A stretch of 64,000 bases of DNA from Candidatus Dormiibacterota bacterium (GTDB taxonomy: Bacteria; Chloroflexota; Dormibacteria; Dormibacterales; Dormibacteraceae), in the NCBI GenBank assembly GCA_003139695.1, contig PLJM01000012.1, positions 1-64,000 of the forward strand. Reading direction: 5' to 3'. Positions 17,957 through 20,772 of this stretch are shown here, piece by piece; the first letter of the stretch is position 1, and the number at the start of each line of letters is the position of its first letter. The notes under the pieces were generated by a model that was given only the letters and a program-made list of their open reading frames with translations, searched no databases and was not told the origin of the DNA. The translations under genes were made by a program, and so were the position numbers.

Positions 17957-18592
17957 ATGAGTACAAATCCGGCGCCCGCGGATCTGGTCATCTTCTCCGA
18001 CTACGTTTGACCCTGGTGCTACATCGACTCGGTCAGAGTCGAAAAGCTGGAGCAGCAAGGTCTTGTTGACCTGACCTGGCTCCCTTACGAGCTGCATCCG
18101 GAAACGCCAGTCGAAGGGACCCCCCGCGAGGCTTATTTCGGACGCGCGCGCTCGGAGCAGATGCGAAGCCGCCTCGATGACATCGCCGACGAGGTGGGTC
18201 TTGTCATGAAGCAGCGCGATGTGCTGATCAACTCGCGAAAGGCGCTGGGAGCTGCGGAGTTTGCGCGCGAGCACGGCAAGTTCGAGGAGATGCACCGCGC
18301 GCTTTTCAAAGCGCACTGGGAGCTGACCGGCAAGCTCGAGGATGTCGATGATCTCGTGCGTATCGGGACCGAGGTCGGGCTTGATCCGGTCGAATTGCGC
18401 AAGGCGATCGAGGAAGGCCGTTACGAGCAAGTTCTCGATGAGAACCGCCGGCTGGCGGAATCGGTAGGGATCAATGCGATTCCCGCCCATATCTTCGGCC
18501 GGCGCTACCTGGTCCTCGGCGCGCAGCCTTATGAAGCGTTCACGCAGGTGATCGATAAGCTGCGCGAGGAGTCGGCCGCCGGCGGGAAGTAG
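17957..18592 (+). CDS. FrnE/DsbA-family thiol oxidoreductase, predicted selenoprotein (in-frame TGA)
   Basis: Reading from ATG 17957, the frame gives FSDYV, then TGA at 18008-18010, then PWCYIDSVRVEKL and an intact FrnE-like protein to TAG at 18590-18592, 211 residues. FrnE proteins normally have FSDxxCPWCY, so the TGA replaces the first active-site Cys (residue 18); the second is Cys21. The rest is typical: INAIPAHIFGRRYLVLGAQPYE holds the cis-Pro. It is the only in-frame stop, and the sequence on both sides is conserved in style. A SECIS-like hairpin sits in the right place downstream. I read it as selenocysteine (U-P-W-C). The alternatives are a nonsense mutation or a base-call error (TGC/TGT to TGA). 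Standard gene calling would start at 18161 and lose the active site. Confidence 0.82.
18024..18042 (+). promoter_or_regulatory. Candidate bacterial SECIS element
   Basis: A perfect 7-bp stem, TCGACTC (18024-18030) with GAGTCGA (18036-18042), closes a 5-nt loop GGTCA (18031-18035). The loop starts 21 nt after the last base of the TGA. Bacterial SECIS elements lie just after the UGA, with the apical loop about 16-37 nt away and a G among its first two bases; the E. coli fdhF loop also carries GGUC. All these traits are met. Confidence 0.75.
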
Positions 18593-19036
18593 TTACCTGG
18601 CCGACGTCGCGAGCCATTGCCGTGCATTCTCGACAGACGAGAAATACCTGACCTCGATCTCGTTTTCGGCGGCCTTGGCCATGTCATCGATGTTTTTTGT
18701 TGCCGTACCGCTTCTCGGCATCACGATGGCCGCCACCCGTAATCCCGCTGCCAGGGCACGAGGCAACCAGACATCGGTGATCCATTGCAGCTCGGATTGC
18801 TTGATTTCATTCATGTCGCGACCGTCGAAAAGCCATCGAGAGCCTTCGTGATCCGTCATAGCGCGAATCGCCGAATCGAGCACGGCATGCGACTCAGCCG
18901 TGTCTGCCCAGCCCTTGGCCTCGATGTGAACCACGTTCCAGTTGGCGTCCCAGGTCACGTCGGCGACGCCGCGCCGGCTGAAGTACAGGTCGACACGACG
19001 CGATAGATCGTCGTGGAGCGCCGCGTCGGCTGTCAT
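18593..19036 (-). CDS. SpoIIAA/STAS-like protein, copy 2
   Basis: A 147-residue protein resembling the SpoIIAA-like (STAS/Sec14-type) families. It has alternating strands and helices with SRWLFDGRDMNEIKQSELQWI and a C-terminal FSSVENARQWLATSA. It overlaps the stop of a paralog upstream by 4 bp; shared features are the QxWI, W-L/M-P-x-A-x-x-AGLR and FSS-x-E-x-ARQW stretches, so the pair arose by tandem duplication. Proteins of this class may bind small ligands or partner proteins; no function is assigned. Its stop abuts that of the convergent selenoprotein gene. Confidence 0.7.
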   Translation of the reverse strand: MTADAALHDDLSRRVDLYFSRRGVADVTWDANWNVVHIEAKGWADTAESHAVLDSAIRAMTDHEGSRWLFDGRDMNEIKQSELQWITDVWLPRALAAGLRVAAIVMPRSGTATKNIDDMAKAAENEIEVRYFSSVENARQWLATSAR

Positions 19037-19515
19037 CTAGTGGCTGCAACCTCCGACACCCACTGCCTTGCAGCCTCGATCGAAGAAAACGTGCGCGATT
19101 CCAGTCCATGGTGATCAACCAGAACGACGACATCCTGGATCGTCAACCGCCCCAGCCCAGTGCCGGCCGTGACGAACGCCAGCCGCCTGAGCCCTGCCTG
19201 GAGTGCGAGCGGCATCCACTTCTCCTGAATCCATTTCTGGTCTTCATGGACGATCACCCTCAGCTTCCTGGCGTCGCTCACATAGGCGGCCGCACGGTTG
19301 TCCGTGATCGCCTGGATTCCCTTCAGAAGCCCCGCTCGTAGCTCCGCGCTGTTGGCAAAACCCTTCCATTCCGAGAGGACGTGCTTGTGCAGGCTGTCCC
19401 AGCGGATGGAAAGGTACGGCTCGTCGACGTAGACGTCATTGGAAGGTTTGATGCCCAACGGTATACGCCCTGAACGTGTCGCTTCGCATCCCAAAAATCG
19501 GTGGGAAAGACCCAT
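19033..19515 (-). CDS. SpoIIAA/STAS-like protein, copy 1
   Basis: A paralog of the gene at 18593-19036. With the ATG at 19515 it has 160 residues; the open frame runs much further upstream but that part reads as the antisense of the next gene. Conserved stretches: EPYLSIRWDSLHKHVLSEW, then QKWIQEKWMPLALQAGLRRLAF, then RTFSSIEAARQWVSEVAATR. A TTG start about 20 codons later (LGIKPSNDVYVDEPYL) is also possible. It is coupled to copy 2 by an ATGA overlap. Confidence 0.7.
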   Translation of the reverse strand: MGLSHRFLGCEATRSGRIPLGIKPSNDVYVDEPYLSIRWDSLHKHVLSEWKGFANSAELRAGLLKGIQAITDNRAAAYVSDARKLRVIVHEDQKWIQEKWMPLALQAGLRRLAFVTAGTGLGRLTIQDVVVLVDHHGLESRTFSSIEAARQWVSEVAATR

Positions 19516-19575
19516 CAAAATTGATGGCTCAAGGACGACTGATCTGGCGGCCCGCGCCCCTATGATCGGCCCACC

Positions 19576-20772
19576 TTGGCATTCTCGGTCGAAGACCTGG
19601 CCCGAACGGCCCTCGTTAGAATCCTCCCGCGCAGCCGCTACCGCCTCGCCGCGACGACCGACTCGCGATTCGCGTCGTTCGCCGGCAACTCGGCACGGAT
19701 CGCGTACCGGCAGCAAGGCGCCACACCCGCTTTCCTGATCTTCTCCGGGCCGGGCCAGGATCCCCGCGCCGCCGCCACCGCCGCCGCCGCGTGGGCAGCG
19801 GCCAACTGGCGGCCGAACGCAATCCAGCGAAGGGTGCGCCCTGGGGTGGTCGTGGTGCAGGTGGCGCCCGCCGCCGAGCTGACCACGCCCGGGTTGGTGC
19901 CCTCGACCGCGGTGCCGGCAGCGATCTGGACTGTCGACGCGGATAGCGGCCGCACCGAGGCTTCGGGCCAGCCGCCAGGCTCGCCGCCGGCAGTGGAAAT
20001 CAGACGCGCCGGCGCGGCGCTTGCGCAGGGACTGCCCGCTCCTTCTCTGGGCGAGCTCGACCACGCCGAGCGGGAAATCATGCAAATGCGCACGCGCGCG
20101 ATGCCGCAGGCCGTGGGTGGAGTCGTGGGCATCCTGTTGCTCCTCTTCGCGCTGCGCTACGGATTCGGGGCGCTGGGCAGCCTCGGTGCTCTGTTCGGCG
20201 TTCTCGCATCGCCGCAAAGCGCGGCCGCTATGCCAGGAGGCAAGCTGCTAGTCGCCGGCGCGCTCGTTGTCAACGTGCTGATCCTCGCGGGCATCGTCGT
20301 TGGTCTTGGCGTGCTGATCAACGTCAGCAACCTGGCCGCCCGGCTGCCCGGCTTCTCCAGCCCGACGCCCAGAACGCGAACGATCACGTGGGTCGGCTAC
20401 GCCGCGATCATGGTCGGACTCGCCGTGGTGCTCGACGGGGTGATACCTGCCATTGAGCGGACCGGCCCTCAGAACGCCTCGCAATATGCGCATGTCGCGG
20501 TGAGCACCACCGACGACGGCAGCGAAACCTTCGTCATCGTCGGCGGCGACCTTACCGTCGACCTTTCGGCGTGGCCGTCCTCGGAGTGGGCAGGTGTCCA
20601 GTTCAAGACCAGCAACCCGAGCATCCTCAGCCAGGTCCAGCCTCCATCAACGGGAGGTGCCCCGGTCGCAGTATTCATCGCCGATCAGGTGGGCACGGCT
20701 CGCGTTGACGCCGCCTCGACAGACGGTCGTTACACCTTCCAGGTGCGGGTCAACGTCATTGCCAGTGGTTAG
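19576..20772 (+). CDS. Membrane protein of unknown function
   Basis: A 398-residue protein, not recognised. The N-terminal 170 residues are soluble and Ala/Pro-rich. Three hydrophobic segments follow at about 176-200, 225-255 and 270-290. The C-terminal 110 residues look extracytoplasmic and beta-rich (ETFVIVGGDLTVDLS to GRYTFQVRVNVIASG), recalling an Ig-like or cadherin-like domain. The start is TTG at 19576. It stands alone between divergent and downstream small genes. Confidence 0.65.
   Translation: MAFSVEDLARTALVRILPRSRYRLAATTDSRFASFAGNSARIAYRQQGATPAFLIFSGPGQDPRAAATAAAAWAAANWRPNAIQRRVRPGVVVVQVAPAAELTTPGLVPSTAVPAAIWTVDADSGRTEASGQPPGSPPAVEIRRAGAALAQGLPAPSLGELDHAEREIMQMRTRAMPQAVGGVVGILLLLFALRYGFGALGSLGALFGVLASPQSAAAMPGGKLLVAGALVVNVLILAGIVVGLGVLINVSNLAARLPGFSSPTPRTRTITWVGYAAIMVGLAVVLDGVIPAIERTGPQNASQYAHVAVSTTDDGSETFVIVGGDLTVDLSAWPSSEWAGVQFKTSNPSILSQVQPPSTGGAPVAVFIADQVGTARVDAASTDGRYTFQVRVNVIASG

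Follow-up and report, generated by a model that had tools for sequence, protein, structure and literature searches.

A predicted selenocysteine-containing FrnE/DsbA-like oxidoreductase with a U-P-W-C active site in a Dormibacterota-type soil Chloroflexota bacterium

Does a single in-frame TGA at the active-site codon of an otherwise open FrnE/DsbA-like gene mark a broken reading frame, or is it read as selenocysteine (Sec)? The question arises from a locus in a 64,000-nucleotide window (the whole stretch of DNA analysed in this study) of a Candidatus Dormiibacterota bacterium, whose genome assembly comprises 3.3 Mb in 34 contigs and is 94% complete. Read-through translation confirmed the frame proposed in the preliminary description of this DNA: on the forward strand it runs from ATG 17957 to the stop codon TAG (18590-18592) and is interrupted only by TGA 18008-18010, so that the gene (17957-18592) specifies a protein of 211 residues with a predicted Sec at residue 18. 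As had also been claimed, the TGA occupies the position of the first Cys of the C-P-W-C motif of FrnE-type DsbA proteins (context FSDYV-U-PWCY), and mechanical ORF calling indeed yields in this frame a 143-aa fragment (18161-18592) that lacks the active site. In a whole-genome search the Pfam DSBA model (PF01323) aligned across the TGA over positions 2-190 of its 191, and the read-through protein scored 106.2 bits against this model over residues 10-199 (curated cut-off 25.6). The sole Cys of this protein is Cys21 (18017-18019, forward strand), the active-site mate of Sec18. It is invariant in alignments of 12 and 42 sequences, as is Pro176 (18482-18484, forward strand), which, judging from its position, probably represents the cis-Pro of the thioredoxin fold. 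A motif scan for other selenoproteins within the window returned numerous TGA read-through frames whose motifs are attributable to chance; among these the TGA at 18008 stands out. A second PF01323 match in the genome (C2:196405-196863) was considered and rejected; it is stop-free and has a CPFVF site without a second Cys.

Orthologs were sought in 61 genomes, comprising that of the source organism and others of the same genus, family and class. A match at E ≤ 0.001 was found in 47 of them, in most cases with one TGA inside the match. All 30 loci that were read base by base (44-80% identity) carry TGA at the aligned codon, within SDYV-U-PWCY or SDYV-U-PFCY (SGYV-U-PFCY at L029), and at each of them the frame past the TGA is open and conserved to its natural stop. 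Within the ortholog clade of the window, all 42 distinct sequences retain the TGA, down to approximately 45% identity. Members of this clade come from several families within a single Chloroflexota class and from two genomes outside that class, and the named relatives are metagenome-assembled genomes (MAGs) designated 'Candidatus Dormibacteraeota / Dormiibacterota / Chloroflexi bacterium'. A single in-frame stop is a common artefact of draft metagenome assemblies, and a frame broken only once is what would be expected of a pseudogene or a sequencing error, i.e. of a real FrnE gene cut by a spurious TGA. However, the identical codon recurs in dozens of genomes that were assembled separately and represent several families, and random error would not produce conservation that continues past the TGA up to the natural stop. 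Ortholog conservation has already refuted this explanation, which we regard as extremely improbable. The preliminary description had argued that a chance stop would rarely strike this very codon, and had named TGAs scattered over other sites in relatives as counterevidence; the DSBA match spanning the TGA and the exact codon shared by 30 of 30 read orthologs uphold that argument.

Some orthologs end in TGA, which accounts for the rows in which two TGAs were counted; the possibility of a second Sec in these few relatives was rejected, the extra TGA being the codon that naturally terminates their gene, where the match ends. The use of TGA as an ordinary terminator by many orthologs of the same gene also argues against a genome-wide reassignment of this codon, e.g. 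to Trp (code 4) or Gly (code 25), which would equally render the frame uninterrupted. Moreover, Trp is encoded by TGG, selB, selA and tRNA-Sec are present, and the residue found at the site in distant homologs is Cys, neither Trp nor Gly; the probability of reassignment is, in our estimation, vanishingly small.

The pairing of Sec with Cys at codon 18, which had been suggested as a check, was indeed found: TGA in the orthologs corresponds to TGY (Cys) in distant homologs (e.g. SDYV-U-PWC versus SDYV-C-PWC). Among 104 distinct full-length homologs, the site is TGA in 48 and Cys in 56. The Sec form comprises the entire window clade (42/42), single Anaerolineae-type and other Chloroflexota sequences, Nitrospirota and one proteobacterial MAG, while the Cys form is found in Anaerolineae, Myxococcota, Pseudomonadota, Bacillota and others. 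The tree requires at least 4 Sec/Cys changes (counted without direction), compared with an average of 34.8 for shuffled labels, and the 42 Sec sequences of the window clade form a single supported clade (99/99). The Sec-form FrnE-like genes of Nitrospirota and the proteobacterial MAG (L079, L083 and L092) are distant from the Chloroflexota clade.

The genome also encodes the complete selenium machinery. All four components whose presence had been proposed as a test (selA, selB, selC and selD) were identified with scores above their cut-offs: SelB (344 bits, cut-off 242) adjoins SelA (488 bits, cut-off 268) on contig C26, SelD (357 bits, cut-off 125) is on contig C21, and tRNA-Sec with anticodon TCA (69 bits, gathering threshold 47) is on contig C7. 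A lack of selB or selC, which would have spoken against Sec, is thus not observed. Among 400 genomes of the phylum, SelB was detected in 67 of the 69 with the TGA form versus 244 of the 331 without it (the placement of the TGA at the active site was ascertained only for the loci retrieved); the associated Fisher P = 2e-6 is only indicative, since the genomes are related and the numbers were tallied manually from two tables. The two TGA-form genomes without a SelB match (G018 and G251) are both fragmented drafts. At least two further genes of the source genome have TGA at textbook Sec positions. The gene of formate dehydrogenase alpha (FdhA; L164, C6:18095-19957, reverse strand) contains one in-frame TGA, in SCNRT-U-HAPSVAG, at the textbook Sec site. 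A peroxiredoxin-like gene of the AhpC/TSA family (L166, C7:581265-581654, forward strand) has one TGA in the match, within FTGGU, a TxxU motif like that of Sec peroxiredoxins. There is also a second AhpC/TSA-family gene (C16:12528-12896, reverse strand) with one TGA inside the match.

Independent evidence for the Sec reading, absent from the preliminary description, is added by a bacterial SECIS hairpin at 18024-18042 on the forward strand (UCGACUC-GGUCA-GAGUCGA), in which 18024-18030 pairs with 18036-18042 to form a stem of 7 bp, topped by the apical loop GGUCA (18031-18035) 20 nt after the UGA (MFE -10.0 kcal/mol, z -3.5). The published bSECIS model specifies a loop of 3-9 nt, a stem of 4-16 bp, a spacing of 16-37 nt, G in the first two loop positions and MFE ≤ -7.5 (PMC13188914), and the window hairpin conforms to it in every respect (loop 5, stem 7, GGU, spacing 20, MFE -10.0). 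All seven stem pairs are present in 39 of 48 Sec genes versus none of 55 Cys genes; individual pairs form in 88-98% of the 48 distinct Sec sequences and in 18-95% of the 55 Cys sequences at the same positions. At the two top stem pairs the Sec sequences display two-sided changes, with CG, GC or AU replacing UA or CG.

Protein conservation can by itself give rise to a stem at this site, and codon randomisation was accordingly applied to each protein. When the window sequence is taken singly, a stem of 7 bp is rather probable given the peptide IDSVRVE (P = 0.19); the case for a SECIS element rests on the sequence set. Hairpin conservation in the Sec genes exceeds what the protein sequence imposes: 6.67 of 7 stem pairs were observed versus 5.29 expected, with a maximum of 5.75 in 300 codon-randomised sets, while the Cys genes equal the null (3.98 observed, 3.90 expected). 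The synonymous codons of the stem are fixed (ATC 40/40, GAC 41/41 and GTC 42/42); GTC makes up about half of the Val codons, yet it encodes the stem Val in every case, and the synonymous codons of invariant Val, Pro and Leu residues outside the stem vary.

The relatives, the hairpin and the full selenium machinery support the selenoprotein reading put forward in the preliminary description, and we consider it almost certain that the product of the gene is a FrnE-type DsbA thiol/selenol oxidoreductase of 211 residues, probably located in the cytoplasm, with Sec18 as the predicted nucleophile, inserted under the direction of the SECIS element. The ribosome at UGA 18008-18010 would insert Sec through the action of SelB and Sec-tRNA(Sec) bound to the hairpin just downstream, with Sec supplied by SelD, SelA and tRNA-Sec. 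From their positions, Sec18 may serve as the selenolate that attacks disulfides (or may act in thiol oxidation), and Cys21 would then resolve the selenylsulfide. The protein has no further Cys, and so the enzyme would have to be recycled by a partner, e.g. thioredoxin or a low-molecular-weight thiol. Termination at UGA is always in competition with Sec insertion, and it is conceivable that the codon is regulatory, Sec being incorporated only if selenium is plentiful and a functional 143-aa product, started at ATG 18161 (which opens the remainder of the frame), being made otherwise. This is very unlikely, since neither the first strand nor the active site is contained in such a fragment, and it is the U-P-W-C site that exhibits the strongest conservation in both alignments (12 and 42 sequences).

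The full-length selenoprotein, modelled by AlphaFold2 from 42 sequences with Sec represented by Cys (pLDDT 94, pTM 0.89), is predicted to adopt the thioredoxin fold with a helical insertion that characterizes the DsbA family. Its best match among solved folds is FrnE of Deinococcus radiodurans (TM 0.83, range 0.80-0.86), SCO1869 of Streptomyces coelicolor being another of the top folds, and D. radiodurans FrnE is also the best sequence match (E 6.5e-19). These matches, the U-P-W-C motif and the lack of a signal peptide evident by eye in the 211 residues would place the protein in the FrnE subfamily (cd03024 / COG2761). FrnE proteins are described as oxidoreductases of the DsbA family that reside in the cytoplasm and have CP(W/F)C sites; that of D. 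radiodurans (DR_0659; PDB 5cnw, 5co3, 5cp1 and 5xwh) acts as a disulfide reductase/isomerase and contributes to stress tolerance (PMC8945050). The window protein resembles the latter in its active site and DsbA-like domain and may have a similar activity and location, but its predicted nucleophile is Sec in place of Cys. It also differs in the absence of the C-terminal CxxxxC (residues 239-244 in D. radiodurans FrnE), a feature of many, though not all, FrnE members that is likewise missing from those of D. maricopensis and S. roseofulvus; for members of this kind, to which the window protein belongs, another route of regeneration is presumed (PMC8945050). The C-terminal half also aligns with another protein of thioredoxin fold, the Rcas_1661 family thioredoxin-like (seleno)lipoprotein (NF041057), a listed DsbG-like selenoprotein. 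Membership of that family was rejected, the match (51.9 bits, cut-off 190; model of 247 positions) covering residues 92-201 only.

The finding leaves knowledge of Sec coding unchanged. The gene is a new member of an established family of Sec-DsbA selenoproteins (UxxC, PF01323/COG2761) known since 2005, when nine sequences of COG2761 were described from the Sargasso Sea (PMC1088965). The family recurs in the GOS data as 'DsbA 1', with 63 sequences (PMC2398784), and a list of 2026 includes PF01323 as 'DsbA-like protein form 1' (PMC13188914). The window protein shares with them the DSBA domain, Sec in the first position of UxxC, the downstream bSECIS and widespread Cys homologs. However, the known members, of which NIP15863.1 is one example, are listed mainly from marine metagenomes, whereas the window clade is that of Dormibacterota-type soil Chloroflexota, with U-P-[WF]-C and Sec only. 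Such a Sec-only FrnE clade seems to be unreported: a search covering part of the literature returned nothing on the use of Sec by Dormibacterota, and one for FrnE together with selenoprotein gave no relevant paper. We are inclined to believe that it represents an ancient Sec-only lineage, maintained without Cys reversion across several families of Dormibacterota-type soil Chloroflexota, with the sister Anaerolineae switching between Sec and Cys. If so, FrnE would be a core, otherwise misannotated, Sec-decoding client in a largely uncultured soil group. Since standard gene calling yields a fragment without the active site, many Chloroflexota genomes probably carry a wrong annotation of this enzyme. 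For testing why Sec stays at a disulfide-oxidoreductase site, the clade provides both a naturally occurring, well-sampled set of FrnE enzymes with Sec or Cys and a SECIS under measurable synonymous constraint.

The genes next to the FrnE gene in the window (SCO1-like, HTH and SpoIIAA-like) had no match beside the orthologs and gave no operon clue. Two adjacent proteins encoded downstream on the reverse strand (18593-19036 and 19033-20217), the first of them SpoIIAA-like according to Pfam, are approximately 36% similar to each other, and this pair is probably the result of a tandem duplication.
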